Of a stretch of DNA of 64,000 nucleotides, positions 16,712 through 47,900 are shown piece after piece (position 1 is the first letter of the stretch; each line of letters starts with the position of its first letter). Origin of the DNA: Pagrus major. Lineage: Eukaryota; Chordata; Actinopteri; Spariformes; Sparidae. The notes under the pieces were generated by a model that had not been told where the DNA came from, did no database searches, and saw only the letters and a program-made list of their open reading frames with translations. The translations under genes and the position numbers were made by a program. The stretch lies in the NCBI RefSeq assembly GCF_040436345.1, contig NC_133234.1, positions 13,718,446 to 13,782,445 of the forward strand. Reading direction: 5' to 3'.

Positions 16712-16940
16712 ATAATTACGGTGGTGTAACATCCAGCCTGGCTCAGCTACTCTGATTTAAATAAATAGTGTGAAGAATTATTCCATGTTGTCAATAAACT
16801 CTTCTCTGATTCAGCTCTTCCATGTGCGCTGTTACATTCTTTAAATTGTAGATAATCACGTTACAGTTCAGTGACCTAAATGACAGCAGACCGATGCACT
16901 GACACTGCAGATGTGACATTTTGTTCTTGCTCCTGCAGAA

Positions 16941-19900
16941 ATGTCTCATTCTAAACCGCTGCTCATCCCGTGGCTGCGGGCTCGCATCGACAGCGGCAGG
17001 TATCCTGGAGTCCAGTGGACGAACCCGGAGCGGACAGAGTTCTCCATCCCATGGAAACATGCTTTAAGACAGGACTCCTCCGACACTGACATCCTCATCT
17101 TCAAGGTAACTCACAGTCATCACAAATGATATCATATTTAATAACTAAATGGGGGAATAGTAGAAGGTATCGCACAATGTATGTCACTGAATCTCGCTTT
17201 GGTGCCAGAATGTCGTGACAGCTGTATTGAAGTCTATGGGAGATGCATTCACTAAAACCCAACATACGTCGTATGACTTCTGATGAAGAAATGCCTCCAG
17301 AAAAGGAAAGAACACACTTCAGAGAGCAGGCTAACGACTGATTCTTTTATCGGCACGTTGTTCATCCCTCGATTTTGTTTGAGAAAGATATAATCAGTCC
17401 TGTCAATCATTTGGGGGAAAAAAAGTGGTTAGGTTAGACTCTGAAGTGTGTCTCTTGAGTGTTTTTCAATGGATCTCCCATAGACTTCAACACAGCTGGC
17501 ACCATAGCATGACTGAGTGACGTAATGACCCCTCCCTTCTTGTTAGGTTCCTTGTCACATCGAAGGAGGTACAATGTCAAGTAAGCAAAGTAAACAATTT
17601 TGTCAATGCTTGCTACCAAAGGAAAACTCATAAGGTTCTCATTTTCCATGACTGATCAACAAGGTGTTACCTAATTTAGTCCAGTTGTGTACTTGATACA
17701 TGAGAGTTTGCACTGCATGCGCAGCAAACATCCACTGATCATTTGTGAAAGCGGGGCCTTCCCTGGTTGTTTGGTAAAATTCACTCCCCTGCAAAATCAT
17801 CCCAGTAATTCTAGAGTGATTCATTATTTCTAAATGGATCTAAAATTCCTTTATAATTTCATATATATTGCAAATAAATGACTAGCTCTAGTGACAGTGG
17901 CTGTAATGTAATGACCTCTTCCTCCCTGCAGGCCTGGGCGGAGGTGAGCGGCAACGGCCGGGCTCAGGGAGACGCCTCGGTCTGGAAGAGGAACTTCCGC
18001 AGCGCCCTCCGAGTCAAAGGCTTCAAAATGGTCTCTGACAACAAGAACGACGCTGCTAACCCCCATAAAGTGTTTCACTGGCCGGATGACTCGGCATCAG
18101 GAGGTGAGGATCAAAGACGACCCCCATTTGGTCTTTTATTGTAGTAGACAGTTAAAGAAGAAGAAGAAGACTGTTTCCTGTGATGATCTGCACAAAAAAA
18201 GATGTGTATTCAGATTCCATTTCTCTCTCTCTGTTTTATTCATGCAGAATTATTCAGCCTGTGTATCTTAACTATAATCCTAGGAAGGGGGAGGCATCAG
18301 ACGGTCTATCATATCACTCGATTGCAAATTAGATGAAATACAAAAATCAGATAATACAGTATATGCGCCACAGATGCTGCTCATTTATGCTCACATGTGG
18401 GTAAAAGAGCACCTCTCTATCACCGTGGCCACACACAGGCCTGTACAGTCCCTCCTTACCTCCACATCACTCTCCAACTTGTATTCTATCTGGAGTCACG
18501 CCTCAGTGGATGAGAATTGTCAATATGCAAATGCAGAGCATGCAAGTCAATGCCATTTGTAGCGGGGATTATAAGATTAAAGGAGTGTTTCTGAGGAGGA
18601 TGAATGATTAAAAGATAGTAAGCAGCACATTAGAACTGAGCTCTTTGCTTTCACTCTCAAAGCTAACTCCTCTGCTGGATCCCAGGACCAAGACGACCCC
18701 GATTTGTTTGAGGATGTCAGCTTTCCTATACAAGAAGTAAGAATTGTAGAAAAGTGTGAATGCTGTGTTGTTGTGTAGTTGCATATGAACTCATACAGAT
18801 GTGTGTCTGTGATGTTTTAGAGCCAGTTGGAGGCATGCCTTGATGACTGTCTCTATCTTTCAGAAGAAACTGTGTTTACAGGTGAGGGATTTATCATCTC
18901 TTGGCGTTAGTTTTGTGTCTCAGAAGGTAAATCTATCAGATCATTAATTTTCTAGTGAGGAATTTGGAATCACGTTTCTGAGCTTATCAATATTTATTAT
19001 CTCCTGGCATGAGTGTTGTATCTCAGAAGTGTGAATTTATCTGATAGCGAGGAATTTGGAATCCCTTCTCTGAATATCTCTGAGCTGATCAATATCTGCC
19101 AGCAGAATCCGCTGCCAGCCATGATATCCTCCAGGAGTGTCTGAAGGGACTGAACATTGGCCCTGACACAGGTACCGTCTCTGCTCATCATCTCCTCCTC
19201 GCTGCACAAGCAGAAAACAATGCCCAGCTACTTTTCCAGAGAAAGATAGTTTTTCACTTTCTCCAACTTTTCCACAGAGGGCACCGCAGGCTTTGAGCCT
19301 CCTCCCGAGCAACAGCAGCTCCAAAACCAGCTTGCGATTGGTGGATGTGCGTTGCCTGGGCAACAGCAGCATCCAGTAACGTTTGAGAGTGCAGTCGGTG
19401 AAGCTGGGTTGCCTGAGCAACCGGCACGTCCAATGGAGGGAGCCATGGGAGGGGCCTGTGGTGGGCAGTTTGCGGAGCAGTTCCTAGAAACCATGAGCAG
19501 GACCAGTGGTGGAGATAATTTCAGTGAGATGATGGATGCCACTGTATTTACGTGCAATTTACACTCAGCAATGACTTCCCTCATAAAATATCTTTCATAA
19601 GGCCGTTAAAACAATGAGGCCTGTCAGTGTAAAAATAAAACCAGTCACTGAATAATGTGTTTTAAAGAGGAATACAGTGAAGAGTGGAGCCTCTCCTCAC
19701 ACACTGCTTCTCTTTCTGTATCATCAGAGACTCAGTTCAGGATATCAGTGTACTACAGAGGGGTGAAGGTGTCGGAGCAGATGGTTGAGAATGAAGCTGG
19801 AATCCGCTTGGTCTACAGGTAACATCAAAATAAAGCTTTCATCAAAGGAAACATGTCGGACGAATGTTCAGAATCCACAGTTCATCTTCAAATTGACTCT

Positions 19901-21967
19901 CATAGTTAAAGGGGGCAGTCGGATTTTGTTGAATACATGCTGTTCTTTCTTGCACAGAGTCAGAGATAGGAGGAGAGTCATTGTGCTCTCATGTCTGTAC
20001 TGTAAGCCATTATTTCCCATAGGATGGTGAAGTCATGACCCGCCCTATTCTGCCTCTGATTGGCTCTTACTCTTTGCCTTTGTTGGCTGGGTTGGTTAAG
20101 TTTAGGAATGAGGAGTGAGATTGGTTATCAGGGCGAGTCAATCAGAATCACAGTGGAGTGGAGCACAGGTAATGCCTTCATCATCCCGGGGGAAAAAAAA
20201 TGTAAGTGCAACAGTCAGTTTGTAGCTGTGGCCAGGAGCTGATTAGCTTAGCTTAGCTTAGCTTAGCTTAGCATAAAAAGACAAGAAACGGGGGAAGCAT
20301 CTGGCCTGGCTCTGTTTAAACAGTGGCATCGAGTGTTAAAAGGACCAGGCTAGTAGTTTCCCTCTGTTTCCGGTATTTGTGCTAAGCTAAGCCAACTGTA
20401 TCCTGGTTGTAGCTACATATTTAGTGTACAGATATGAGAATGATGTCAATGTTCGGTCATTATCTGCTCACACCTATGCTGATGGAAAGTCAGGTGAAGT
20501 TTTATAGTCCACCCATGAGGGATGCGAGCTAACGCTATTAGCTTAGTGGCTACAGTGAAGATTTCAGCTTGAAAAAAGCTTTAAATAACAAATCAATTTG
20601 GGTTTGCTTTTTTGGCGCTGTTTTTTAATGTCTTAAAACAAGTCCCCATCTACTTCAGTTATTTAGGAAAACGCTGAATGCTGTTTTGCTGTGAATCTCC
20701 AGAAATGTTTTGTAAACTACGAAACGTCAACTTTCCATCGGCATGGGGTGAATAGATAATGACTGATTTTTCATTTTTGGGTGACTTTTTCCTTAAAGGC
20801 CAAAAATATCAAACTATTCCTTTAGTGTTCATGGGCAAATAGCCTAATATTCAATAAAAAATCTAATGAATCAATGTCTTCATGTCAGACCTGAGCTCAT
20901 CGGGACAGTGGTGGATCCTGCGTCGGGCCTCTCCCTCGTCTCCCTGCCAAGTCCTGGAATGATGCTGGATCAAACCCAAGTCAATCTGACCCAGCGCATC
21001 TTGGACAAGCTGGGCGATGGCGTTGACTTTGGGGTGTCGGGCCATGTATTCTACGGCCAGCGACATGGCGAAATCAAAGCATTTTGGAGCTTCTCCAAGC
21101 ATGACAGCAGCAGAGTGCCCCGAGAGATTTATAAACTGGAGCCTCAGCCGCTGTACATGTTCAAGGACTTTGTGCAAGGTGGGTGAAAGGAACAAGCTTT
21201 CTGATGGGGGTACCTGTAAATACATATGCAGTCTTGTTGGCTCGATGTAGTGACTGATTGTCCTTTCCCTCTAGGAATATTGGACTTCATTGAAGGCAGA
21301 GACTCCCCTCCGTGCACCCTGTTCTTCTGCCTCGGGGAGAAGTGGCCTGACCCAGACAACAAGCCTTGGGAGAAGAAGCTCATCACAGTGGAGGTGAGGC
21401 AACCTCTAAATTATTGAAACACACAGACAGTGTTGTGCTCTCAAATACCTTAAAGCAGTATTTCAGTTGCACATACCTCGATCAAATTTCATGAGTGATC
21501 AAACCGCCAAAATTGCCCACTCAAGGGAGCTGTAGTCAGCAGCACTTTTCAAGAGGCAATTTTGTCTCAGTATTGATTAATAGCACTGGGGGAACAAAGC
21601 CTGAATACCGCTGGTGACAGCTGATCCCTCTGGTGTAAAAGGTTTCTCTGCCCCCGAGCCTCTACAGTAGAGCACATGCTGTGAAATGAAAAGCTGGTGC
21701 AAAACTTTAAAGAAAACCAGCGTGACACGTCTCATTGCTCCAGCTTTCTTGAATTTCAAGGCCTCTGTCAAGCTCAAATTCGCCATCTCGCTCATGTCAT
21801 TCTTGTCATTGCGTCTGACTTCTGCTGCCTGTTCTGTTTTTTCTCGGTCTCAGGTGGTCCTCACTTCAATGGAGCTACTGAAGAATATGGCTGTTGTAGG
21901 CGGCGCCTCCTCCCTGCAGTCTGTGGAGCTGCAGATGTCGCTCGAAGAGATGATGGAGATGTACTGA
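16941..21967 (+). CDS. irf3: IRF3 (interferon regulatory factor 3), 466 aa, 10 coding exons
   Basis: Transcription factor activated downstream of RNA/DNA sensing through MAVS/STING/TRIF and TBK1, inducing type I interferon. Coding exons: 16941-17105, 17932-18103, 18663-18736, 18821-18881, 19103-19171 (start uncertain by 3 nt), 19278-19523, 19728-19818, 20889-21178, 21275-21393, 21854-21967; a non-coding exon precedes. The DNA-binding domain (about 1-115) has the Trp pattern W11, W26, W38, W57, W73 in contexts LLIPW, GVQW, SIPWKHA, AWAEVS and SVWKRNFR. A weakly conserved Gln/Pro-rich linker covers about 116-262. The IRF-association domain (about 264-450) contains FRISVYYRGVKV, HVFYGQRHGEIKAFWSF and CTLFFCLGEKWPD. 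The tail has VGGASSL and VELQMS, matching the human VGGASSL...LHIS phospho-regulatory region, but the protein stops 7 residues later. Linkage to prr12 and adm5 supports IRF3 over other family members. Confidence 0.92.
20236..20810. repeat. Teleost interspersed repeat mosaic in irf3 intron, including a (TTAGC)n run
   Basis: About five TTAGC pentamers (20,243-20,271) open a block with GCATAAAAAGACAAGAAACG and GGCCTGGCTCTGTTTAAACA, typical of a dispersed teleost family. The block from about 20,440 to 20,800 resembles the element at 58,766-59,356: TCATTATCTGCTCACACCTA near the start and GATAATGACTGATTTTTCAT at the end. Non-coding. Confidence 0.6.
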
Positions 21968-23671: not shown

Positions 23672-26600
23672 TCAGTTCTTCTCTCCCTCCTCTGCGTCTC
23701 TGTCGTTCTCTGACCCAGACTCTCTCTCCTCAGGGAGGGAGTTTTCCCTCAGTCCCATCATTGGGACCAGCCTCCCCTCAGAATCCACTCTCATCGCTTG
23801 GATACCACCTCTGCAAAATAAATGAGTAGAAAAAAAACATGGACTATTTAATAATCAATATTGTTCTCATTGAGCTCATTTAATCTTGTTCTGAGCCAAT
23901 ACTAGACTCGTCTTTTCAAACTGTTGCCACTGTGAAGATTTATACTTATAAATTTGATTTGATTGATAAGAGATACTGTGTCTGAGTCATTTCACTGACC
24001 TGGACAGCTTGTTGAAAAGCATGATCAGCCTCTTGGCCTCCTCCTCCTTTTCCTCCTCTGTCATGCCCTCCATGGGGTCTGGCTGCTCCGTCTCCACCCG
24101 CCCCGTCACCGGGTTGATGCGATCTTTGACCTGCCGGTACTCCTCAGTGTCCGAGTCAGAGTCGCTGGAGTACTGGCCGTCAGTGGTGGGGGCCCTGCAG
24201 CTCTGGCCGCCCAGCAGACCCCGGGAGGCCAGCAGGCCTGCCGCATTACCGTAGCCCGTGTACTTGACAAAACGACTCACTGGAAGAGGAAGTGAAGGCA
24301 GAGGTGACAATTGTATTCACAAAAATATGATTTTTTGGGGGGTTATTTCTAATCGGTTGAGGAAGGTATTTTATAGGTAATAATTGATGAAAATTTGACT
24401 AACGCCCCTGACAGTTTCTAATTAGTAATGCATGCTGTGCAAACAAGCATTGCTCAAAAACACATAAATATTATTATAAGTTCTAGAGGAATGCCTAGTC
24501 CAAATATGTCAGGCTGAATTTTCAAGAAATGTATATGAATTCATGCACAATACAACAGATATACAACACAATACAATGGATTCTAGAGGAAATATAAAAG
24601 GAATGAGGATTTCAGGAAGAAAAAAAAAAACAGGTATTTTTACACTTTTTAAAAAAACAATTTTAACTAAATTTTTTAAAAATCAGATCAACATGAATCC
24701 AGAGTACATCCCTAATGAAAAGTAATGATGTCTGCTCTTACCATTTTCCTTGCAGAGTACAAAGATGAGGTCAGCAGCGCAGTGTTTGACATCTGTATCC
24801 AGATGAGTCATAAGACGGATCAGACGACTCTTCACAGTGGACCCTTCCTCCGGCCTGTGTGTCGCGTCTCTCAGAGGAGGCAGGATCTGATGATCAGTTA
24901 TAATTTCAGTTTCACACACAAAAATACAAGCTTCAAACATAGTCTAAATATTGTAAGAAGAAAAATATGAAATGAGTTTTCTTTTAATGTTTGTGTGCAT
25001 TACATGCTTCCTGATGTATTGACGTGTTTCTCTGTGAGCCCTGCAGCTCTCTGTCAGCAGATTGAGGATTGGTGTCAGCTTCTCCTTGATCTTATCACCC
25101 TGAGAAGCAAACAAACATGGATGACTCCCTCAGGTCATTTCAGTATTAACAAACGCTCTCTGTTTTTAGGAGGAAACTCATGATTCAGTTTCCTCTCTGT
25201 ATATTACTTTCTCCCTCACCGAGTCCAGGCGTTTTTCCATGAACATCACAAGGGTGTGGACACAGTCCATGTTGACCCCCTGGCACTGCTGTGAGCCGGG
25301 TTCCACAGGCACCATCAGCAGCACATCGAGACACTGGAGAGGCAGCGCTGACAACAGGTTGACTGTGTGACTGTGGGATGGAGAGAAGATTACAGGTCTA
25401 ATATAGCAGTGTTCAACATTACATAATACTTCATGCAAGAATATAGAGTGAAACACAAATATACATTAATGACCCAACAACATGAGAGGAATCATCCCTG
25501 ATACAATAATCAAATGCTTGTTCTATTCAGGTAATAAGGTCTTAATAAAGGTTTAAATAAAATAAAACAAAATTAAGAACTATAAAAATTCAGATACAAT
25601 CTAGGAAAAATATATTTATTATTATAATAATTTAATCAGATCAATTGAAAATTTTAATCTAGCTGTGGAAGCCTCAAGTCAGTAAACAAGAAAAGGATAA
25701 ATGCTATCAAATCTAGAAGTACGTACAGATGAATGTTTACAGATTAATATTATTTTAGAGTATTACTTTAGAAACAGCGATTCTTTGTGAAAGTAATATT
25801 TTTGGACCAAACCAAAGACTTGAATTTTCGACCTGGGATTAAAATATTGATGAACAAAAGTGTATTTTATAAAACTCGTCATGGAAACATCCAGTATGGA
25901 GTTGAAGGTGTTTCCACCTCATATGAACATTAAAATCTAAAATAAATCTGATTTGATCAAATAAAAACATGGGTGCGATAGATCTTCAGGATTACACTTA
26001 TATCTTTTTTAAACACATTTTTCAGAAACATATATTATATAAATTGTACATGCTGTAAATACATGAGTATATACTGTATCCAGATCATTTTGACAGTATT
26101 GTGTTTATTGAACTCATTTGAAACAAAATTAAAGGTAAAAAGAGACAGAATAAGAAAATTACTGCATGACAAAAACCTGATTACAAAATGCACCCTTTAT
26201 TCCCCCTTTCATGTTTTAATTCTTTCTTTTTTACCTCTTACTTCCATTATTCCCTTATTTTTTTTTTTTATTAATTAATTTTGTCTTAATACACTTTCAT
26301 GAGTTCGTAATAATTTAATACTCCTGTTCTCCTGACACGTGTAGAATTATTCACCTGTAAAATTATTTCTGTTTTCTTGAATATCCTTTTTTTTAATTAA
26401 ACAAACACTAGCAAATTTAAATGCATCTGTATTGTTTTTTACTTATGATGGTTGTCATAGCCATTTCCTTGCTATCCAACCTCACTTGTGTTCATGCTCA
26501 CCCCTGCAGTTCATCAATATCGTCAGGAAGGATACACTTCCTCATCAGGCAGACACGCAGGAGCGCCACCAGGTGTCGGTAGAGAGCTGCATTGTCCTGA

Positions 26601-29600
26601 GGGAGAAGAAAACACACAGTAGACACATAGTAAAGCTCATATCTCTGGGATAAAGTGTGAAGGGGTCAAGGAAAACAAAGTTTTATGATTTAATTTGACT
26701 TATGCAGAGGCTGACATTACACCTGAAGGCCTAATTCTGGACTTGGTCACTGACCTCACTTGGCTCCTGCCTGTGGCTGCTGCAGGTGATGTTGAAGAGG
26801 GTTTTGAGGATCTCGATGATTCGCTGAGAAGCTTCAAGGGAGATGGGTGGCGTTGTTGGGCCCAGCACACATACATACTGGTCTTTCCACTGGACCTCCA
26901 GGGAGCTCTCCAGAGCTGCAGTGAGGATGGACACGCCTCCCTCCTGGAAGAGAAACATGATGTGTGTGAGAGTGTGAAGACAGCCAGTTCAGAGGTGCAG
27001 AACAAGTCAGGTCTGTTTGTATTAATATCAGAATAAACTGAAGGCGTCATGATAAACAAAAGGAGATTTAGCTTTGAGGATTGTTACATCAGAAGGATCT
27101 ACCTGTTGAAGCTGAGTCCTGAGCTCTGGCCGTAGTGCAGTAATGAGGAACATGAGACGTAGTTCATAGAACTGAACACTGGAGGGAGATGAGCAGCTGA
27201 CACTGGAGGATAGACGCTCGATGAGACCACACATGAGCCTGATGGAAACAATAACAAGACATCCGCTGTCTTGAAATATGTTGATTTACAACATCATTTT
27301 ATCTCAGTCTGCCCTGTTAATTTACATCACAGTTTGGGATTTGCTTTTCTGTTAACAAGCATGAACTTGTTGCTTTCAATCAAATCTGGGTGTATGTGTA
27401 CATAACGACTTAGATTCAGAGGATTGAAGGATTATTATTTACTATAAATATATAACATGGATTCATTTACACTTTTTTTGCTGTGACTAAACTGTCATAG
27501 CTTCAATGGAAATGCCCTGAAGTGATCTAGTGTAGGAAAATGGATGCAGAAATGCAGGTGAGAAAGCCAACAGCTGTGTCTTTGTGTGCATGTGTTTGTC
27601 TGCGTCCTGTGAGCAAGCCCACCTGAGAGCACTGAACCTCTCCTGTGCCCAGGTGCTGTTGTACACCACGTTACACAACACCTTCATGGCCTCTTTTCTC
27701 TGCGCCTCCTCTCCTGAATCCCCCTCCCCCTGCTCCTCTTCCTCCACCTCCATCTTGCTCTCCCTGCGGTCCCTCCTGCCTCGCTCCAGCATCTTGTGAT
27801 TGATGCTGCCCCTGTGCATTTCGTTGATGCTGGTCCTGTGGCTCCCGAACCAGCTGATGCTGTCCAGATCTCCGCTGGTGGCGTTGCTGATGTCACTCTT
27901 GGCATCCTCGTCATAGGCGCAGCACTCTTCGTTTTGGTCGGTGCCGTCCATGTCGCCATCGTCCTCATTGGTGCGACACTGCAACACTTTGGCCTCGGCG
28001 AGAGAGACAAGGATGTTGTCGTAGAAGTCAGTGTCAGGGTCGGTGGCTTCCTCGCTCGCATCACATGTGGTGAGGCCGGCTAGTTTGGCCAGAGTCAGGA
28101 GAGCGCTGTCGGTCACAAAGGGGCCCAGGACCTTTTTGTCTCTGGAGAGGATTCTCAGGGTGCGTAGAGACACTCTCAACAGACGAGATTTAACCCCTGT
28201 TCTTATGAACCTCGTGAGGACAAGAGCTAAATTCTGAGGACAGGAAAAGAGAAATAGACACTTAGTTTCACACCATTCTTCAAAGGAACAACTGAAAAAA
28301 CCTCGGGGCAAGACAGTGAGAGAGTCAGGCACCTGTCTGAGGATGAGGCCTCGATCCTCCTGGTCGTACTCGTCATAGTCAGAGTCAGAATCAGTGTAGT
28401 CCCTCACTTTATTCTTCTTGAACTAATACAGCAGAGCAAAGAATACATTTAAAGTTAGGGCCTTCTCATGTGCAACAAAACCAATACTTTAGTATTATTC
28501 CAAATTCTGGCAGCACTGTACCTCCTCAAGTCTTCTTTGCTTTAGGAGGTGGAAAGTTGGATTTCAGTGAGCAACGTGGCAGAAAAAAGAAAAAAGAATA
28601 TCAGTACATATTCTTGTTACCATTGGGAATCATGCGTATGTATTATGTTAAACTATTAGGACTCCTTCACACTCACACAAAGAGTTTCCTCTTAAGAGCT
28701 ATTCACAAAGCTGCTAAGCCAAACTAAAAGAAGGGGTGATGTTGACCCTGTTGCTATGGAAGACATCATGTCTCTGAATTAATGTACTCACTACGTATGT
28801 GTCAATAAATGTGAAATTAAATATTCGTCAATACATAGGAGCGTGAAAAGGAACTAGACTGGATAAGATTAGCTTATAAACGTTAAACATAAAACTGAAA
28901 TGTCTCAACACATTAGAGAACACTGAAGTTCAAACAAGAGAAAAATCCAAGGCACTTTTTTGGCAAAAAAGGTTAAAAAGCCTTAATTTGATGACTTCAG
29001 GAGATGAAAGCCATTTAGCTGACCCTGACCCTAACCCTAACCCTCAGGAGACGAAAGTCATTTGTGCCGCTACATACATTGTCAATGTTTTTAAGAATTT
29101 CAGTATGAAATAGCCATCTAAAAGGCTTTTTAACCTTTTGCCAGAATCAAAGATAGATTTGAGTTATCTAAATTACTTTTAGACAAAAATCTACAAGGAG
29201 CTTTAATTGACTCTATGACCTTATTTAGGAGTTTCTCCTAACTCAATCAGTTAAGGGCTATTTTCGGCCACAGTATGTTTGAGAATACGGCTTCAGATCT
29301 GCTGTTCAATGGCTGCAAATGACAGAGCTGAAAGTGTTGAATAGATTAACACACAGGCTGTCGGTTATTCAATCACTCTGCCTGGGCTCAATCTGCCTGA
29401 GCATGCAAGGAGAGAGGATCAGGGACAACTGATACAGCAGAATTACTAATCACATACAGACTATGGAGCCAGGGTGGGGAGGGGTGGATGTAGGCTAAGA
29501 AAAGGTTAAGGTGAGGTTTAAGGGGCACTGGTTGGACAGGAGCAGCAACTTACCTTCCTTCGGTCCCTCTCCTCTGCATCAAAGAAGAAGCACTGGGCGA

Positions 29601-29787
29601 ACTGCGGGAGATGACGACAAAATGATAGTCATTATCATATGTTACAGCAACATATCGTCCAGACAAGAATGTGTGAACTTCTGTGTGTTGGTATTACCTC
29701 TCTGTTGAACTCCTGCAGCTGTGTCTGAACACCGTTCTCATTGCCCTGTTTGATGCACTGGATAATCCCCTCCAGGTCCACGTCCAT
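23672..29787 (-). CDS. ric8a: RIC8A-type guanine nucleotide exchange factor/chaperone (synembryn-A-like), 689 aa, 12 exons
   Basis: Cytosolic chaperone and exchange factor for nascent G-alpha subunits. Exons in transcript order: 29787-29698, 29601-29554, 28422-28333, 28233-27623, 27238-27103, 26943-26755, 26596-26502, 25370-25220, 25099-25004, 24886-24742, 24279-24000, 23810-23672. Total 2,070 nt, all phases consistent. Family blocks: [143 protein letters not shown], then an acidic [12 protein letters not shown]2-type site and INPVTGRVE / [15 protein letters not shown]. The last two are RIC8A-like, not RIC8B-like. RIC8A and RIC8B are about 520-540 aa; the excess is an acidic insert at about residues 155-255 inside the armadillo-like repeats and a separate 30-residue acidic exon (47-76). 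I think it may be a paralog distinct from the canonical fish ric8a. Confidence 0.9.
28955..29147. repeat. Fold-back repeat in ric8 intron with a short telomere-like core
   Basis: Arms of about 23 bp, GGCAAAAAAGGTTAAAAAGC at left and GCTTTTTAACCTTTTGCC at right, can pair with one mismatch or gap. Between them lies CCCTGACCCTAACCCTAACC at about 29,024-29,045, resembling three to four vertebrate telomere units. It probably is a MITE remnant. Confidence 0.65.
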
Positions 29788-33925: not shown

Positions 33926-34967
33926 ATGGAGATAGCTGTTCTGCTGCTGCTAGTTGTGCCTTTGACTGCTGCCACACCGCTCAGACCAACTCACAGGTCA
34001 GTGAAAAACATCAGTAAATATTAAGCTAATGATAACAGAGATAAACCAGATAAAGATTTTCCTGCCCCAAAAGCGATGTAGATATTGAGACAGAAAGAAG
34101 GAGAAAACTGGACTACATATTAGTTTATCTATATATCACAAATTCCAATATTAATAAATACCTTTTTCTGATGGGCCTACAGGTCAGACGCTGTCTTCCC
34201 AGGGGACATCGTCCAGACTTCAGAGGTAAAAGCATCAGAGGACGCACAGGAGCAGCATGTTCAAGCACTGAAGATCATCCCATTTCACTCAGAAGACAAA
34301 CATCTAGACCTGGACGCACTGAAAGAAAGGTACATAAGAGCACACAACACATCGTGAGTGGCTGAAAACTACAGAGGTTCTACTTACAAGAAATACTTGA
34401 AAACATCTGCTTTCTTGTATCACATCACATTTTACACACTTTATTTTTGCTAATCCTGTAGTGTGTATTTCCGTCCCACTAATTAACTGGCTTTTAGCAA
34501 TTCCTAAATTGTAGGTGTGTATGATCTACATAGTCTTTATTTTTAATATTTTTACTTCATTTTTTTAATTATTATTATTTTGTCCGGGTTTTTTTTTTGT
34601 CTTGCTTCATTTTTATCTATCATAAATCACTGTTTTCCCTCTGTTCATGACTGTTGAGCTGCTGTAACAGGTTAATTTCCCCACTGTGGAATCAATAAAG
34701 TCTTATCTAAATTGTAGTTTTATGATTTATTTGAAAACTGGAGATTACTTTTCTAAATGTATGTTACTTATTTATTTTCCACCTCTTTCTCATTTTTATC
34801 ACTACAGCATGGCAGTGAAGTTGCGTCCCCGGCGTGCGCCTCAGCACGGCTGCAAGTTAGGGACATGCCAGATTCAAAACCTGGCCAATGACTTATACCA
34901 CATCAGCAACACAAACGGAAAAACGACGTCGAACAAGGCCCGCGACCCGCATGGATACGGCAAATAG
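33926..34967 (+). CDS. adm5: Adrenomedullin-family prepropeptide (adrenomedullin 5-like), 125 aa
   Basis: Secreted peptide hormone of the CGRP/adrenomedullin family, expected to act on CALCRL/RAMP receptors. Exons 33926-33996, 34183-34329, 34808-34967 (TAG). It begins with a hydrophobic signal peptide, MEIAVLLLLVVPLTAA. The propeptide ends at a dibasic site in LRPRR and the mature part starts APQHGCKLGTCQ. The disulfide ring has four residues between the cysteines (C-KLGT-C), typical of the adrenomedullins. It continues NLANDLYHIS and ends HGYGK-stop, where Gly supplies an amide to Tyr after Lys removal. The GCKLGTCQ..NLANDLYHIS region and linkage next to irf3/trpm4 fit AM5 better than AM1 or AM2. 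An upstream in-frame ATG at 33715 in the first exon (donor after 33760, acceptor before 33915) would add 19 residues; the 33926 ATG has the better context (-3 G, +4 G) and starts a proper signal peptide. Confidence 0.85.
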
Positions 34968-35999: not shown

Positions 36000-38900
36000 A
36001 TGAGAGACACAAGAGGAGAAGGAGGAGGAGGAGGCGACGGAGACAAAATCTGTAAATCTGAGAAAGATCAGGTGGGTAGGCTTTTCTTTAAATCACTCTG
36101 CTCCTGTTGTGAACTCATTGCGGTGTCTGGCAAAGACTGCAGCAGTGAAACGATGAATAAACGAGGAGCCGACAAAGTGGAAGTTGTAAAGAAAGTTGTG
36201 GCTGGCAGTTATTCTGCGGGGCTGAGTCACGGTGACGAGCGATGTGCCTGCTCGGGACAGCACATATCTAATGGCCGTGTAGTGAATACTTCTGTTATTA
36301 GGAAACCAAAGGCTCTCTTACTCTCAGCTGTGTGTTAACACTTGCATTTTGTCGCATGTTTAGCTAGCGCCGGCTAGTTTACGGTGTGTATGTTGACAGT
36401 GCACGTGACGTGTAACTTTAAACCGGCGGAAGTGAAGACAACGTTAGCTTGGCTGCGGAAAATACGCATTCAACTGATTTACAACTTAATAAACCGGTGA
36501 ACGTCACTGACTGTGACAAAAAGGTGCGGATGGATATTTTTTAACAGTTAACTACATGAGCGTTTACCTAACGATAACTGCAAAAACAAAGGCGAGAGCA
36601 TGCCCATAAATGTGTATGTTGTTCTGCCCGTTGTCTCACTAGCTAACTAAATCATAACGCTACACATACAACTAGCTAGCATACCAGCTGTATTTAGCAT
36701 CCCATAGCTTTGTAAGGTTTGTACTTTAAGCTAGCTGAAGCTGTAACACACATATTGATCGTCATACCTACATCCAAAGGATAAATACAATACGATGTAA
36801 GAATTGTCTCTGTTGTCTCTGGACATATGTTCACTCGACAAGCTCAGGTGTTATTAATAACGTGATGAATGGCTGCATTCCGTTTAGACGTGCCAGCACA
36901 GCGGCTCTGGTGTTGTGCCCCAAGCTCACTGATAGGGCTGGCTGGCACAACTAATTGGAACGCAGCCATGATTTTTATCAGCTATACACAGGGTTGTATT
37001 CAAAATGTACTGTGGTACAGTTAGTGACCTACCTCAGTACCAAACATATACACATAAAGACAAGAGAAAATAAATATGAATAAGATTACTTATATTTTAT
37101 CTCATGTATTTACAGATTAGTATTTCATTCTTTATATTGAAATTGTAATCCTGTCCGTAAACCCCCTTTTTACTGAATGTATCTGTAATCAAATTACATC
37201 TTTTTTTCTGTGACTTCACCAGAATTCAGTTACTTTTTTTTAATCCTAATTACGTAATCCTCTAATTACTCCTCAAGCCTGATTACACATGGGCTTCTTC
37301 TGGTTCTTCAGTCAAACATAGATGTATTTACACATCCACACAGCTAATGATGCACAATAAATATCAGGCCGATAAATTACCACCCCTATCTTGGGAAATT
37401 TACATTATCTGCTATTTATTGGTATCAGCGAAATTCTAGTCGATGGAGCCAATAATACAAAGCCAAATATCTTTCATTGACTTGACGAGCACAGCATCTA
37501 CACACAGATACAGTAGTTGCCTGTATGCATCTTTAAAGTTGGTTCCTGATCGGTCCTGATCAATTACAGCAATAGAATATTAAATCATCTATCTTAGCTT
37601 ACTATATCTTAGCCCTTCTTACCCTCAGGTGTGCATAAATAACAGGTAATTAACTTTTTTTTAAAATACAAAAAGGGGAAATAATGGTATCGGCTGTGAC
37701 AAGCAGGTAATAATCGGTATCGGCTGAAAATAATCCACATCGTGCATCCCTACACACGGCTATTGGTGTGACAGTGGATTAGAAATTAGTTTATTTAAAA
37801 GAAATGTTCTGTTGTTAGTTAAATGTCAAAGTTGGAAAGAGACTTCAGTCCAGTTTCAAGATGTAAGAAGATTACAGTGGGGCCCCTCACTTTAACAAGT
37901 AGGTTTGCAAATACTGGTGTTCAGTACCGTAGTAGCCTACGTGACCACCGCTTACACCCTCTCCGTCTCTTACACATTCACAAACCCATAAAAATTGAAG
38001 CTGAAACTACAGCACCACGTCAGAAGTCGCACTCAGGTGTTATGGCAGGCATATCTCTGAGCCAAAGTCAACATTTCTCATTTGAACGGTTTACTGCACC
38101 CTGCAGCCACATGATTTCCAGGCGTAAAAGGGTAGGATATGATTTCTTAAAGCTGAAACAGCCTGTTTATATATTCAGTTCATTAACCTGTTGAAAATGC
38201 TTTCAGAGCTGGATCCCCAAAATCATCAAGAAGAGAGTTTGCACCACCTTTGTAGAAGATTCCTTCAGGTACTGTGAGCTCTGCGGAGCACATTCCTTTG
38301 GTAATAATGTCTGTCTGTTGACTGTGTTGATGCAACAGGAGATGATCCTGTTTTCACATGTATCATCTTCTCACATCTCGCAGCAATGGCGCGCTGTGCC
38401 AGTGTGGGGGTGTCAGAGATGCCCATGCCTCTGTGGCTCTCGGGGACTACTTTAGCACAGCGATGGTCAACCACTGGGACAGCGCCCAGCACTCGTCTGA
38501 ATACCCGACGGATGCCTTTGGAGAGATACACTTTGCTGGAGCCAGCAAGAGGCATAGCTATGTGGGTGGCCTCTTTGTTGGCTCTGAATGCCTCATTAAA
38601 TACCTTCGATTTTTTTTTAATCAAATCTGTTGTGTTTTCAAAGTGTTTCATAAGCAAATGAGCCAGATGATGATTCAAATTAAGTACTTCTGCTTTTTCT
38701 AAACTTTAACCTACTTATGTGTTTACAGTGAGCAAACTAACAATGCTGACAGAGAGGACCCATATCTGTACTGAGAGGCTAATCTAACTAATCTAAACTA
38801 ATCCACTTGTAGTGTAATTTAGCATGTGTTTGCATTGTATAATCACAGTTCTTTCTATTTTAAGTCATAAGTGTGGTTACTTTTGAAATAATCAATCAGA

Positions 38901-41900
38901 TGTCTATAATTGTCTCTTTTTTGGACCTCAGTTCCTTCGTCTGTCATGGGACACGCCGGCGTCTATGGTCTACACCCTGATGACAGCCCACTGGGGTCTT
39001 CCCTCACCCAACCTGGTGGTTTCTGTAGTGGGCGGAGAAGGCAGGACAAAGGTGAAGACCTGGGTACGGGAGGTCCTCAGGCAGGGACTGGTGAAAGCCT
39101 CACAAAGCACAGGTAAACAAATCCTGGTGGGTCATAGGTCACACACCAGTTAACAGCATTGTGAACACATATACACTGTTAACAGTGTATGTCCACCATA
39201 TATATAAAATAATATATTTTGACTGGTGTGCTACTAAATTCAGGGTATCTGAAGGTCCTTAAAAATTTGATTATCAGAAGTTTTAAATATTTTTCTTTTA
39301 CCTGCTTTACTCAGTAATGTTTGTTATACAATGTTTCTGTAACTGATCACAGCTGTCAGGAAACGTTATTCATCTATAAACTAAAAGTGGGATTGTTGTA
39401 GTTGCAGCGAGTAATCAATTAATTGATTAGTTGATCAGTCAATCGAAAGAACATTAATCAACAGCTATTTTGATAATCTATTAATCTATATGGTAATTTT
39501 TCAAGCAATATTGTCAAACAGTTGTTGGTTCCATTTTCTTAAATGAAGAAAATATTTGCTTTTGTTTGTCATTTATGATCGTGAAAAAGAGTCTTTTGGT
39601 TTTGGATTTTTGGTTGGACAGAGAAGCAATTTAGAGATGTCGCTTTTCGCTTCGCTTCAGATTGATAAATAATGAAAATAATTGTTAGTTGTAGCTCCAG
39701 ATTTTTTGAAAGTGGATTGTGAATGTAGGAGGCTGTACAGTAGCAGTATACAGTAGCATGCACTGTCAGTATTGCAAGCTACAGTAGCTCAAGTAGCAAT
39801 TTTTTTCATTATGGGCAAGTTTGAACACATTTTAGCAAAGCCTGACATGACAGAATACATTTTGATTGGTTAATTCATCCACCTATTTTCTGCTGCTTAT
39901 CCAGGTCCAGGTTGTGTAAACAAAATTGATTATATCTTTAGGAATTATTGTTATGTTGTGCATGGAAGTACTGACATTTTTGATTTAATGATAAATAATT
40001 CTAGGCTGAATTGTCCCTTCTGACTTTCCATCAAAATGAGACTGCTACTTTTCATGAAGGCAAACTGTAACTTTGAAGTAACTGAACAGGGTATGAAAAA
40101 TTGTTCTATGTGATATTTAAAAGTCTTAAATTTAATTTGATGAATCCAGCAGAAAACCTGAATTTGAGATGTTTTGATCTCTGTTAGTTGCCTTAAATCA
40201 ATTTGTTCCCTTTTTTTCTCACATATCAAATTGCTGATTTCTGGACCTCTTTTACAGCTAACAAATGCTAGTAACTGGTATTTATGGCCTCATGTGACTT
40301 ACTTTAAAACTATTTGTAGGTGATTTAGTCACATCAGTTGAAATCACTTATATTTTTTTCCTTGAGGTGATTATATCATTTTGCCGACCTCTCATGTTAC
40401 AAGCTCAAAATGTTCATTTAGGGTCATAATGACAGAATCAGGAATCTTCTATTTTATTAACCATTTAAACAGTATATGTTTGTAATATAGATTAGAGCCT
40501 TAATACAGATAACTTTCAGTTCTGTATATTTTTGCTTGTGTAATCTTTTTTTTTTCCCCATGATGTCAGAACCCTCAAAAATCATAAAAAAATCAAAACG
40601 ACTGACTAATAATGCAAGTTTCTGAATCAGCACTTTCTTGGAAAACGCATGATATACCCATGGTGGTTTTAGCAAGAAAAATACAGCTGTTGCATTATGT
40701 CTTTCCAGTACACTGTATGTGTCCCTGTGGTCTGATCCTAATTTGGTACTACAATGACCATTTCCTTCTGACTACTGTGCTAAGCGCAGCTGGCACACGG
40801 CGATACTGATCTCCCATCATCTGAGGTCACTTTAAGTGGCTGTTCTCTGAAAGACCCCTGATTACAGCACAGTTAATCAGACACACGCAAAAACAAAAGC
40901 AAGGTGCACTTGTGTAGACACAGGTCACTAATGCTTGGCTTTAGTATAAACATTGTTGTAGGGAAATGTAAGTACAGTACTGTACAGTAATGTGAGAGCA
41001 GCGATGCGAAAAGCTGTTGTTGTACATTGAAACACATCATGTTTTCTTATGGCTTCTTATGACAAACCTAGGTACTAATTACAGAGGTAACTATGCCATT
41101 TTTTTCAGGCATTCAATTCCAGCATCAACCAAACTTTTAGTTTCTCCTTTTACATTCACTGGTTTGACTGTTCCTCCCAGGAGCCTGGATCATAACAGAA
41201 GGCCTGCGTGAAGGCGTCGGCAGGTGTGTCGGAGAAGCGGTGAGGGATCATGCCACTGCAGCCTCGTCGGTCCCCCTCAACAAAGTGATGGCGCTGGGCA
41301 TCGCTCCGTGGGGGCTAGTGCATAACCGACAGCAGCTGGTCAACTCTCAGGTCTGACACTGTACCTACATACTGAACTACCCGCCAACCATGATCATGTT
41401 CCCTTTTATTGTGAAACAATCAATGAAAAATTCCTCATCTTTACAGTCTAGGTTTCTAATCCTATCATATCCCTTGATTGTTCCTCTTTCAGGGCAGCTT
41501 TCCTGCTAAGTACTATGTCCAGAACTTGACCCGGGACTCCTGCTGCCTCGACAACAACTACCAGGCCTTCCTGCTGGTGGACGACGGGAGTGAGGGGCGC
41601 AGAGGAGGACAGATCGGGTTCAGGGCCAAACTGGAGGACTACATCTCCCACCAGCGCACGGGCATCTGGGGTGAGAGATGGGATAATGAAATCTTATAGT
41701 TTTTATTGAGTGTAGAATCAGAATAGAAGACCTGGAAGACGCTGGTCCTCCTGTGTATATCACAAGAATTGAGTTATTTGTGTTAGCTCAATGCTACATG
41801 TTCAACCTTGATTTGGCCCTCCTGTGGTGAACTTTTACTGATGCAAGAGATGATAAGATAATCCTCTGGTATCCACTGGATGAAAGCCATTGCGTGCCCC

Positions 41901-44900
41901 TGCAAGAATTTGAGACACAGCGGCTCCTCAACATGTAACATCAAGCAGGGAACTGTCCAAAATTGTAACAGCTACTCTGTCTGTGTTTGTGGTGTCTCTA
42001 CACACTTAGTTTGATTGATCATGTCGGCATTAAAGTGAAGTCTGTACTAACAAATAACCTCCCAGTGCACTAAAGGTGAAAATGCTTGTGCTTTTGTAGG
42101 CAGTGGCAGCATTGACATCCCTGTCCTTTGTATGCTGGTGTCAGGGGAGGCGAGCATGCTGGAGGTATAGTCACAAAGACATTATTAGTTTTAATATTAA
42201 AATGTACTCTCTGATTGTACTCCATAAAGAAACCCCTCTTTCTTTTCCTTTTTCCTGTCAGAGAGTTGATCTCTCTCTGAAAACCTCCATGCCCTGGCTG
42301 GTGCTGGCCGGCTCAGGAGGCCTTGCTGACTTCTTGAGCGATCTCTTGGAGAACCTGTCCTTGGCCCCGGCTACACAGTCCTCTGGCGAGGGAGATGGCG
42401 AGGCAGGCCCCAGCGTGGATCTGAAAGACAGAGTGGCAGAACGGCTTAAGAAGCACTTCCCTTCTGAAACAGAGTTGGATAAACTAGTTGAACCGGTAAG
42501 TGCTGTGGACAAAGAGGTTTATGAGGTCATGTGGGTGTTGACATGCAGAACAGGAAGAAGCTGTACATTCAGCTATCTAACATTTATATTCATGATCTTA
42601 GAAGTTTTCAAATGTTATTCTTTGTGGCCCCTTGACCTTTCTTTTAATGCTCAAAGGTCAGTTTTACTCACACAGGATGTTTCATAACATAACGGGCAGC
42701 CTTCCAATACCTTTACAGCACATTTATGAACAAACTCTTTAATTTTTAACGACCCCATTGTCTTTCTTCTATCATAACCCTCAGGGCAAGCTTACAATCT
42801 TAGCCCAGCTGCTGCTAAAGCTCAGAACAGCAAGATGAACAGTATGTTGCTATGTATGTTGTATGTCATACAACAATTGCATGTTAAGAACATCAATCTA
42901 TTCTGGCCCTGTGGACTTCTCAAGCTACTTCCTGTCTCAGTTTGACCCAGATTCCTGAAACTGCTGGCTGTCTTTTAGTTATTCTTGCTGCTCCACAACT
43001 GACTTTGGAAGTCAGTTTCAGTTTCCATTTGCCAGAATAGTAACGCAAAACACCGAGAAAGAATTGGCTGTATTGTATGTAGTCAATAATGACCAATTTA
43101 CAAAATGCCTTGATGGTTATTTTCATTAATTATTTAGTTTATAAAATGTAAGAAAATTGCGAAAGCTGCTCATCACAGTTTCTTCGAGCCCAAAGTGACG
43201 TCTTCAGATTGTTTTTCCAACCAACAGTCCAATACCCAAAGATCAATGTACAATCATAAATGACAAAGAAAAGCAGCAAATTCTTAAATTGAATTTAAAT
43301 TAAATATTAAAACATTTGAAACATTCAGCCACTTAATGTGTCTTCCGTTTCCCCTTACCATTGCATTCATGTCACAACGGCGCTGTTGCTCGAATCACCT
43401 GCCCTCAAGTGGTTGCCAGGTTGTTGAACGTAGTCACGTGTTGCTAACGCTAGCTAGCAATTACTTTGCTAACACTATCTAACAAAAATGTTGCTGACGC
43501 TAGCTAGCTAACGTTAGGGCAGTATAGTATGCAGCCAGCATCTCAGCCATTTTTATCTTTTTTCTCCAAACTGGTAACTACTAAGACTGTTGATCACAAA
43601 ACACAGATACCATGTGACACCAACAGCATTATATTGTTGGAGAGATAAACAAAACAATCATTTTGGACCTGACAAAATCTTTAAAATTATTAATTCACAA
43701 TCATAATAATGTTTTTAAGGAAATACTTTTATGCAGCACCTTTCTACAAGCTCTGTTGATGTCTTATTTTTTAAAAAAACATTTGTCTACATAAAAATGT
43801 TATCAATAAGATGTCTAAGAAGCTGGAACCAGCAAATGTTGCTTGAAAAATGACTAAAATTACTTACCTAAATATTAGGCAACTAATTTTCTTTTAATCA
43901 ACTAATCGATTAATTGACAAATTATTGCAGCTCTACTTGATGAGCCCCAAATACTGATCTTTCAAATGTCCTGAGGACGTCTGTTTGTCATGATCACATG
44001 CTTTTTTGGAAAATTCCCAGAATGCAATGTAGAAAAACATTCAGTTTCCTCACTGAGCTCTCTCTCTGCACTCCCAACACACCCTTATTACAGATGCAGC
44101 TTTAAAGATTACGTGTTTGAGTTTGATTTGTGTGGCTGTAACATAATCAACACCACAAGCTTTCTTGAAAGAAAGTGGCTGCTCATTGACCTTGATTTTA
44201 TCACTATTCCAGTGAGTCAATCAGTGATGTATCAGTGCCAAATCTTTAACTTGTTGTGTTGTTGAACAAGGGAGTGATTGGATACACACTTCTTATCTTA
44301 TTCTTGTCTACTTGCTGGTCAATTAGCACTGTTGGTGCTGAACTTCAAAGGCCCTGATAAAATCTTTAAACGCTGGATATCTTGCTCACTCAGCATGAAG
44401 AGGCTTTGCACTTAATAATATCATAAATTTGACGACACCCTTTGTCCCCAAAGCTTCACTTTTTGTCTGCTCTTTACATTCTTTCTCAGTATTTTGCTCA
44501 TATATTAAAAATTCCTGTTTTTCTTAACTTCTGCCTCCTTGTTCTTTGTCTCCAGGCTCTGAGCATCTACCAGAACAGAGGCTTCATTACAATCTACCAC
44601 GGAGAGCAGGAGGGCCCAAATGAATTTGACACAGTCCTGCTCAAAGCGTTAGTGGGAGGTACATGCAACTGTATTAAAATCATGGAAATTAAACATTTTA
44701 CGTGGCAACAAGTTATGTTACTTTGATGATGTTTTTTTTGGTGTGATTCTGTGTTTTCCAGCTAGTAAGCAGCGTGCGTCAGTTGATGCCAGCCCTTACA
44801 ATGAGGAGCTAAAGCTGGCGGTGACGTGGAACAGGGTTGACATTGCTAAGAGTGAACTCTTCAATGGAGACATCCAGTGGAGGGTGAGAAGAAAAAGACA

Positions 44901-47900
44901 TCACATGATTTATGTTACATTCAGAGAAATATTACCATGGCAAAGTAGATCCATTAAAATTGAAACCTCCCTCCAATCAAACAGTATGACGACCTGGAAG
45001 ACTCCATGACAGACGCCCTGGTCAATGACAAGCCTCAGTTCGTGCGTCTTTTCACTGAGAACGGCCTCAACATCCTGGACTACCTGACTTACGGCAGGCT
45101 GGAGAGCCTGTACCGCTCGGTGGCTGATGGGACGGTGCTTTTCCAGCTACTTCAGCGCCGTCTGGTGGAGCGACTAGGAACTGTAACCACTGTGCCCACA
45201 TCATCAAACATGCAGGCCTCGCCTTCCAAAGTGGCAGCAGAGAACATGCATAGTGGCCCGGTGACGGAGATCACACTTTTTGAGGTCGGTTTTTGCCTCT
45301 CAATAAAAAACAATGAGAAAAAAACTTGGATTCTTTCTTTGTTTCTTACTCTACCTCCTTTTTCACTCAGGTTGCAGGAGTCCTGGAGCTGTTAATGGGT
45401 GATGTCTGCCAGCCATTTTACTACAATGCTTTGGGCTTAGAGCTGATCTCATCAAAGAGGAGAGCTCTGAAGGTAATTTTTTCTGAATGTGTAGACATAT
45501 TAACTTATGAACTTCTGGCTTTCGAAGACAAGAGGGAATCTAATATCCCCTTCCTATCTTCTCATCCACCCCAGCGTGCCAGTAAGCTGCTGCGTGGTGA
45601 CTGCTTGTATCGGAGACAACGCTGCCTCTTCCCCTGGGCTTCTCTCTTCATCTGGGCCGTCCTTCAGAACCGCAGTGAGATGGCCACTTTCTTCTGGGAG
45701 ATGGTAAATCTTCTGAAGCAGAAACTTGTTTGAAATAATCACATCTCTTAGTGCAATCAGGCTCAGAGCTGTGTCTGCTGTAGACCTCTAGCTTCACAGC
45801 AAAATACTGTATTAGCACCCAATTTAACAGAGTTTGTATGGCCTGACTTCCCTTGCTGTCTCTTGCAGGCAGGAGAGTCGGTGCTGAGTGCTCTGAGTGG
45901 CTGCAAGATACTGAGGGAACTGTCCAAGCTGGAGGTTGAGACTGAGACCAAACTGTCCATGAAGGAGTTGGCTCAGAGGTTTGAGAACGTGGCACATGGT
46001 GAGACCATGGATACATCATCCACTAATGATAAATTCAACATTAACTAATAAAAAAAATTCTGATCAGACATTAGATTTCACATCCTAATTGTTGTACTTA
46101 GTCTTATTTAGCCCGTCTTTTAAAGCATAAGTTCACCCAAAGGTTAGATGAAGCTTTGTATTTCACAAAACGTATATGGAGCTTCACAGCAAAACAGGGC
46201 TGCAGCATTCTTCTAAACTACTGAAGTGGATGGGGACTTGTTTTAAAACAAAAAAAAAACAACAGAAAACAAACATGAACTGGCTCCATACAGTGTGTTT
46301 GGCATACGTTTAGATTCTGGAAGCCCTGAGATCCCAGATTGATTCAAAAAGATATTTACACTCCCATGTCAGCAGCTACAGCAAAGATTTTGGATGAAAA
46401 AAGGGTATAAATGCATGCTTATTTATTATATGCTTATTAAGATGATTTTCAAGCTAGTGTTTTCAAGCTAGTGTCTCTTTTTCCCTCTTCACAGACGTCT
46501 TCAGCTCCTGCTATCAGAGCAACGAGAGTCGCTCTTTCACGCTGCTGATCAGGAAATCTCCAGTTTGGGGTGGCACCACCTGCCTGCAGATGGGCATGGG
46601 CGCTGACGCACGACTGTTCTTCAGCCATGATGGAGTACAGGTGTGTCACTATAACTGACATTATAAAGACCACACCAGAACCAAGTCACTGACTTCAATG
46701 TGGCTGTTTAACCAGTTCTAATTACCCACAGTCCTTTTTGAATTGTATTTTGAGCATGCTTGCCAAGATGTTCAGGCCAAAGCATTAATCCTTTGCTATC
46801 TCAGAAAATAAATGAATAAATAACAGCACTTGGACATAATGAAGTATTAATTTTCTCTCCTCCTCCAGTCTCTGTTGTCCCAGATCTGGTGGGGTGACAT
46901 GGAGAGAAACACGGAGGTGTGGAAGCTCCTGCTCACCTTCTTCTGCCCCGTCCTCTGCTATACCAACCTCATCTCCTTCAGGTAAAACCCTTATGTTTGG
47001 CATTTCTTTGCCAAAAGCATTCAGGAGATTCAGGAGATTCAGAGTTCAGCGCTGATCTCCATCTCACAGGAAACAAGAGGACCATCAGCAAGAGGAGGAG
47101 GGGAAGCCCAACGAGGACGCACCAGGCAGGGACAGCGACAGCCTTTATGGCCACACCGTCTTCTCTTTCTCAGACATCAAACACATGTAAAACTCTTCAC
47201 TCTGTCCTGATTTATTGTAGAATGAATGTCGTTTTTTTTACAGCATGTTTGTTCATTAAAAGTGTCTCATTGTTGTGACAGTGAAGAGGATGCACAAGGC
47301 TTTAACAGTCCCAGGACAGCGACCATCAAAGGTAAGTCCTCTTTAAACACAACACCTGCTTTCATAAATAATCATATTCAGCAGCTACTAATCCACGCCC
47401 ACTAACTTTCCTTACAGGCATACCCCAATCTCGCAGACCGCCAAAGCGTCCGTTCATAGTGTCAAGATGGCGGCAGTTCTGGTTTGCACCTGTCACCTCA
47501 TTTTTGGGGAACGTCCTCATGTACTTCCTCTTCCTCCTGCTGTTTGCCTATGTGCTCTTGGTGGACTTCAAGCCCCACCCGCCCGAGGGTCCAGCCATCA
47601 CTGAGTATGTGATGTACTTCTGGGTATTCACCATTGTGTGTGAGGAGATCAGGGAGGTGAGTGTGGAGAGACATCTTGTCATTTATCATTTATAAGTGTT
47701 TTTTTTCTTTGCAGTATTTGGCTATGTTTATTTGGTATGATTAATTTGTTTTCTTACATTTATAGCTGTGTTTAAATTATGGATCTACTAAATTGACTGA
47801 CGTTTTCTTCCTCAAGACGTTCTTTTTGGGGACGATGAACTGGCGTCAGAGGCTCAGAGTGTACATTCAAGATGTTTGGAACAAGTGCGACCTCATTGCC

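Follow-up and report, generated by a model that had tools for sequence, protein, structure and literature searches.

The stretch of DNA analysed here, called the window below, comprises 64,000 nucleotides of the genome of the fish Pagrus major (C20:13,718,446-13,782,445; positions in the window count from its first letter), and this article deals with a gene of the Ric8 family found in it. The gene lies on the minus strand, with its ATG at 29787 and its stop at 23672. According to the model derived from splice-aware protein-to-genome alignment and inspection, it consists of 12 exons separated by 11 introns, all 11 of which are bounded by GT...AG with consistent phases, and its product of 689 amino acids is encoded in a single open frame without stops. 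The coordinates and the protein length given in a preliminary description of this DNA match the 12-exon model exactly. The features of the gene are the following.

29698..29787, minus strand: exon 1 with the start codon; aligned counterpart of exon 1 in both ric8a and ric8b; phase 0, GT donor
29554..29601, minus strand: exon 2, 48 nucleotides; length equal in ric8a and ric8b
28333..28422, minus strand: exon 3, predicted extra in-frame exon of 90 nucleotides (30 amino acids, acidic); AG/GT bounded, phase 0 on both sides; absent from the ric8a and ric8b models of this fish
27623..28233, minus strand: exon 4, 611 nucleotides in one open frame; N-terminal armadillo part with the acidic insert
27700..27975, minus strand: acidic insert of 92 amino acids within exon 4 (27 D/E, 11 K/R); absent from five other aligned RIC8 proteins
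27103..27238, minus strand: exon 5, from the splice model
26755..26943, minus strand: exon 6, from the splice model
26502..26596, minus strand: exon 7, 95 nucleotides; length equal in ric8a and ric8b
25220..25370, minus strand: exon 8, 151 nucleotides; length equal in ric8a and ric8b
25004..25099, minus strand: exon 9, 96 nucleotides; length equal in ric8a and ric8b; R345 kept, K349 replaced by Q
24742..24886, minus strand: exon 10, 145 nucleotides; length equal in ric8a and ric8b
24000..24279, minus strand: exon 11, 280 nucleotides; G-alpha-contact helices and CK2 motif; corresponds to two separate exons in ric8a and ric8b
23672..23810, minus strand: exon 12, C-terminal tail and stop, from the splice model

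The product is a member of the Ric8 family, which it resembles over its length: the Pfam profile PF10165 (Ric8) matched it with 425.8 bits (E 3.2e-127, cut-off 25.7) at profile positions 2-434 of 447. In a phmmer comparison with the PDB it scored higher with RIC8A (synembryn-A; 6vu8, 414.7 bits; further structures 6tyl and 6n86) than with RIC8B (synembryn-B; 8el7, 345.6 bits). The preliminary description had noticed RIC8A-type blocks toward the C-terminus, and these are indeed kept: the three 8A references all contain PMEGMTEE and the two 8B ones lack it, and the two mammalian RIC8A sequences aligned have exactly INPVTGRVE, its counterpart being INPITGVVE in the ric8a of this fish and INLITGHLE and INPITGHVE in the 8B sequences. 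The presence of 12 exons with introns rules out a retrocopy.

The whole 786-Mb genome (25 contigs) was searched with the PF10165 profile, and among the best 14 candidates, the only ones scored, 13 were Ric8 matches that fell into three loci, namely the window gene and two genes on C8; a fourth copy of much lower score may exist. The gene at C8:6.968-6.972 Mb is ric8b (571.7 bits to RIC8B, 8el7, versus 473.0 to RIC8A), and the one at C8:24.530-24.566 Mb is ric8a, identical to rat RIC8A at 285 and to mouse RIC8B at 235 of 470 gap-free alignment positions. Since ric8a and ric8b occupy separate loci on C8, the window gene is a third RIC8 paralog, for which we propose the name ric8c. The check for other RIC8 genes that the preliminary description had called for thus found both of them, and ric8c is not a sole ric8a; that it could be the ric8a of this species is ruled out, because the C8 gene is closer to rat RIC8A (285/470 versus 227/470).

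The gene structure sets ric8c apart from ric8a as well. Eight intron positions, phase included, are common to the two genes, and exons 7-10 have equal lengths also in ric8b, but in the divergent N-terminal stretch (alignment columns 76-396) the introns are disjoint: those of ric8a stand at columns 237, 273, 300 and 333, those of ric8c at 279 and 325, and ric8b has none. Exon 3 of ric8c occupies columns 46-76, and the intron at column 623, common to ric8a and ric8b, is missing from ric8c. In a recent duplicate of ric8a one would not expect introns so disjoint, with gain and loss being indistinguishable in one species. The pattern points to several intron gains or losses among the three RIC8 genes within the short stretch of columns 76-396.

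For the phylogenetic placement six sequences were used, i.e. ric8c, the ric8a and ric8b of the same fish, two mammalian RIC8A and mouse RIC8B; the sampling thus covers one fish and mammals, with gar, coelacanth, shark, chicken and invertebrates outside it, and three PDB-derived sequences are partial. The alignment has 712 columns, from which the 470 gap-free ones were taken, exon 3 and the insert being in the dropped columns. Both placements with 8B were rejected by the approximately unbiased (AU) test in all five substitution models (p <= 0.002), which rules out a relative of RIC8B, and its sequence puts ric8c on the side of RIC8A. In the best maximum-likelihood tree it stands outside fish plus mammalian RIC8A (support 79 in the Shimodaira-Hasegawa-like approximate likelihood ratio test, SH-aLRT; bootstrap 72), a placement that was best in four of the five models and not significant by AU. 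Parametric bootstrapping (LG+G4) favoured the old placement: the 3.35 log units by which it led in the real data were reached in one of the 100 data sets simulated under a sister relationship with fish ric8a, versus 73 of 100 simulated under the old placement. In the former sets the best tree was the generating one in 75 cases, the old placement in 13 and the third placement in 12.

The genes around ric8c are informative about its origin. The neighbours recognised in the window are the following.

16917..21186, plus strand: irf3; recognised exons are the DNA-binding exons near 16.9 and 17.9 kb and the IRF-3 domain exon at 20848-21186 (Pfam IRF-3)
33927..34967, plus strand: adrenomedullin-type peptide gene; approximate coding limits, read from the sequence, presumptive name
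38887..50972, plus strand: trpm4-type gene; approximate limits of the recognised exons

The preliminary description had listed prr12, irf3, adm5, trpm4 and hrc as neighbours. Sequence comparisons bear out irf3 and the trpm4-type gene, and the names of the adrenomedullin gene, prr12 and hrc are presumptive, the last two being assigned from open reading frames. A genome search with PF13926 (DUF4211) gave no match to any locus or control and carries no weight. The IRF gene adjoining ric8c is IRF3 by its PDB scores (107.5 bits versus 71.2 for IRF7). The TRPM gene scored higher with TRPM5 (8sl6, 447.9; 7mbp, 431.1; which we take to be the human and the zebrafish protein, respectively) than with TRPM4 (404.4), and these scores prompted the idea that it is trpm5 and the window hence an 11p15.5 block. 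Comparison with the C24 and C4 genes of the same genome set this idea aside. Judged by exon layout, TRPM2/4/5-type genes are located on C20 (the window), C24, C4 and C9; in four of six query pieces the window gene had an identity of 76-86% with its C24 counterpart, 47-63% with the one on C4 and 36-50% with the one on C9, and the two pieces without a C24 match lie in stretches only partly covered. Being far closer to the C24 gene than to the C4 gene, which we assume to be trpm5-type by a human motif, the window gene is trpm4-type. Another TRPM gene, on C8 at 11.43 Mb, was considered as trpm5 and set aside: the C4 gene was the better match for three of four pieces, and the C8 gene has an exon layout that we take to be of the TRPM1/3/6/7 type.

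A close twin of the window trpm4-type gene is found at C24:1.433-1.444 Mb, and most teleosts keep a trpm4 pair from their genome duplication according to the available text of PMC13143021. Since the twin of the C20 gene sits on C24, it is C24 that pairs with the window block through the teleost duplication, and not C8, where ric8a is located. No Ric8 match was obtained on C24 among the best candidates scored in the whole-genome PF10165 search, and the C24 twin of ric8c was probably lost. On C8, the IRF gene at 5.11 Mb scored 87.9 bits with IRF7 versus 83.8 with IRF3, and among 11 other IRF loci (a second copy on C13 was left out) it ranked first for the second DNA-binding exon of the window irf3 (40.4 bits, next 30.0); with caution, we take it as irf7. 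Consequently, the linkage of IRF7, TRPM5 and RIC8A presumed in the preliminary description holds in this fish as far as ric8a and the irf7-like gene share C8, and fails for the trpm5-type gene, which is on C4. ric8c itself lies with irf3 and the trpm4-type gene on C20, apart from the ric8a block.

Some observations on the surroundings of these genes are recorded here in their own right. BRSK-type kinase exons were read by eye 18000-16000 bases left of the window start; in human BRSK1 is on 19q13 and BRSK2 on 11p15, and BRSK is possibly another ohnolog pair of the two blocks. At C13:25.472 and 25.498 Mb two IRF-type DNA-binding domains about 25 kb apart have matching exon layout, which looks like a tandem duplicate. 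Next to ric8b on C8 there is a gene that we take, from open reading frames read by eye, to be rfx4, and a SIRT3-type exon 7-12 kb from ric8b (C8:6.979-6.984 Mb; 142.7 bits versus 125.4 for SIRT2). As SIRT3 adjoins RIC8A in human, this exon suggests that RIC8 and SIRT3 were neighbours ancestrally and underwent reciprocal loss once the genome had been duplicated. The ric8a of this fish spans about 36 kb (C8:24529.9-24566.0 kb) amid many repeats; 40 kb more around it contained repeats and no recognised 11p15.5 gene, and the exons upstream of it (C8:24.571-24.588 Mb) are presumably of the PPP6R type; the two that were tried in Pfam gave no match. A dispersed repeat with recurring reading frames occurs both at 48600-49660 of the window, inside the trpm4-type gene, and near ric8a (C8:24526638). 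According to the available text of PMC4350181, ric8b adjoins cry1b in zebrafish, and on human chromosome 12 it is located close to cry1.

Taken together, ric8c is very probably a working RIC8 gene that descends from the early vertebrate genome duplications as the copy of the irf3/trpm4 chromosome, is sister to RIC8A and is absent from mammals. Its ohnolog origin is well supported, mainly by the chromosome context together with an independent published statement, and less by the tree. The statement counts RIC8 among the families of the TRPM4/TRPM5 paralogon, with three members, and goes with early gnathostome duplications (PMC13143021, Mol Biol Evol, April 2026); the third member would thus share with ric8c both its TRPM4-containing paralogon and its early origin. 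RIC8 is named once in the main text of that article; the third member has no name, and in the available text no sequence, structure or function is given for it. In essence, therefore, a third RIC8 ohnolog is already in print in one line, and the anatomy of ric8c is undescribed in the literature searched; that literature, only partly examined, yielded no description of the sequence or function of a third fish RIC8. IRF3, 5, 6 and 7 are assigned to one paralogon, paralogon 6, in the accessible portion of PMC12220609, and no RIC8 is named for the irf3 neighbourhood in the accessible portion of PMC7915476. The preliminary description had proposed an ohnolog from an early vertebrate duplication kept in fish and lost in mammals. 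The first part agrees with the C20/C24/C8 layout, the disjoint introns and the published trio, and the second with the one ric-8 gene of invertebrates and two of mammals stated in the part of PMC10642896 that was available.

Several points weigh against an early origin. The highest identity of ric8c is to fish ric8a (239/470, versus 227/470 to rat RIC8A), and the AU test kept the sister relationship to fish ric8a in all five models (0.225, 0.284, 0.258, 0.577 and 0.248) as well as that to mammalian RIC8A (0.178, 0.149, 0.181, 0.592 and 0.125). Under LG+C20+G4 the three 8A-side placements had near-equal likelihoods, with sister to fish ric8a nominally best (AU 0.577). The branch of ric8c is long, 0.84 substitutions per site versus 0.35 for fish ric8a (about 2.4 times), so that long-branch effects are possible; on balance the tree favours an old origin, which it is not sufficient to establish by itself. 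As for the chromosomes, the C8 IRF gene is weakly irf7 (87.9 versus 83.8 bits) and ranks eighth for the first DNA-binding exon of the window irf3, and trpm5 is off the chromosome of ric8a in this fish. Furthermore, the available text of PMC13143021 does not show its third RIC8 to be the ortholog of ric8c, a single species was sampled, and the gene model comes from DNA alone. The identity, the AU values and the near-equal likelihoods would all suit a ric8a duplicate of teleost-specific (third-round, 3R) or later fish-lineage origin whose rapid evolution gives it a false look of age, an explanation to which we give little probability: the window block has its 3R partner on C24 and not on C8, ric8c stands beside irf3 while the irf7-like gene is on the chromosome of ric8a, the introns are disjoint in the divergent stretch, and the parametric bootstrap gave 1/100. 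With regard to the recent teleost duplicate considered in the preliminary description, the tree speaks with two voices, the best placement being outside RIC8A in four of five models and the AU test leaving the sister position to fish ric8a at p 0.23-0.58.

A dispersed DNA duplication of a single RIC8 gene that came to lie beside irf3 by chance is still less probable. Genes do move between chromosomes, and one genome is considered here; however, landing by irf3 while ric8a shares C8 with the irf7-like gene would be a coincidence, the introns show that it is no retrocopy, and the RIC8 trio published for the TRPM4/TRPM5 paralogon (available text of PMC13143021) makes such an event unnecessary. 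That the gene is decaying or wrongly modelled, its divergence and acidic stretches being lost constraint or read-through introns, is hardly credible, for in spite of the long branch and of an exon 3 predicted from DNA with a weak donor, 689 codons are open over 12 canonical exons, the G-alpha contact residues are kept and the insert scores as coding far above intron windows.

The coding signals of the two additional segments differ. The 92-amino-acid insert has a coding log-odds of 62.9 bits, whereas none of the 89 stop-free intron windows (of 13979) scored above 10.9, with a GC content at third codon positions of 0.70-0.90 in the 60-nucleotide bins covering it, and this score rules out an unspliced intron. 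The signal of exon 3 is weaker: its 12.1 bits were matched or beaten by 57 of 3128 stop-free intron windows (16766 windows in total) and its donor is GTGCCT, hence it should be regarded as a predicted exon.

According to the accessible text of PMC7044438, both Ric-8 proteins act on G-alpha as chaperones and exchange factors, Ric-8A serving the i, q and 12/13 classes and Ric-8B the s and olf classes. In the complex with Ric-8A the position of the ejected alpha-5 helix is occupied by Y412, A415, A416 and L418, switch II is held by E478 and L482, and a basic groove that includes R345 and K349 receives S435 and T440 in their phosphorylated form (PMC7044438). We compared ric8c with rat RIC8A at 13 positions, 11 of them taken from the accessible text of that article and two added (R348 and K352). 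Ten are identical, two changes are conservative (T440 to S, K352 to R), and the replacement of K349 by Q is non-conservative. The contact residues of helices alpha-b9 and alpha-11 (Y412, A415, A416, L418, E478 and L482) are identical in all six cases, while at the CK2 site and its groove S435 and R345 are kept and the S at position 440 also occurs in both fish paralogs. The C-terminal half is the most conserved part (54 of 80 positions identical to fish ric8a in columns 500-580; 18 of 53 in columns 0-100). Judged from these residues, ric8c likely encodes a working Ric8. If it follows the mechanism of Ric-8A, the armadillo trough would hold the ejected alpha-5 helix, a RIC8 helix would take its place on the G-alpha beta sheet, and the acidic linker, present in ric8c as in RIC8A, would stabilise the complex when phosphorylated by CK2 and pinned in the basic groove.

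The structural basis on which RIC8A and RIC8B divide the G-alpha classes is 'not readily apparent' (PMC7044438, accessible text). Because the residues checked are largely common to RIC8A and RIC8B, they do not tell the client class of ric8c, which by analogy with RIC8A would most likely be i/q/12/13. The substitution of K349 by Q and the two extra acidic segments, which distinguish ric8c from RIC8A, suggest that its phospho-regulation is probably altered; as far as searched, the extra exon, the acidic insert and the K349-to-Q change are undescribed in the literature. CK2-like motifs number 20 in the ric8c protein versus 9 to 14 in five other sequences, three of them partial and all of unequal lengths, and 8 of the 20 lie in exon 3 and the 92-amino-acid insert; these are counts of motifs, not of sites. 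According to a stronger proposal, the third RIC8 would be a variant whose regulation has changed through added control parts, with a different phospho-switch or a distinct set of G-alpha clients. Exon 3 resembles the CK2-phosphorylated linker, and together with the insert it could compete for the basic groove, already changed at K349, or substitute for part of it. We regard this proposal as rather unlikely; if true, this fish would have a Ric8 with its own phospho-switch or clients, covered differently by RIC8A and RIC8B in tetrapods.

As a third paralog in which the G-alpha contacts are kept and the regulatory groove is changed, ric8c would offer a natural comparison for the choice of G-alpha class and for phospho-control in the family. 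For the fish itself, experiments on G-protein function that target ric8a and ric8b may be buffered by the third gene.

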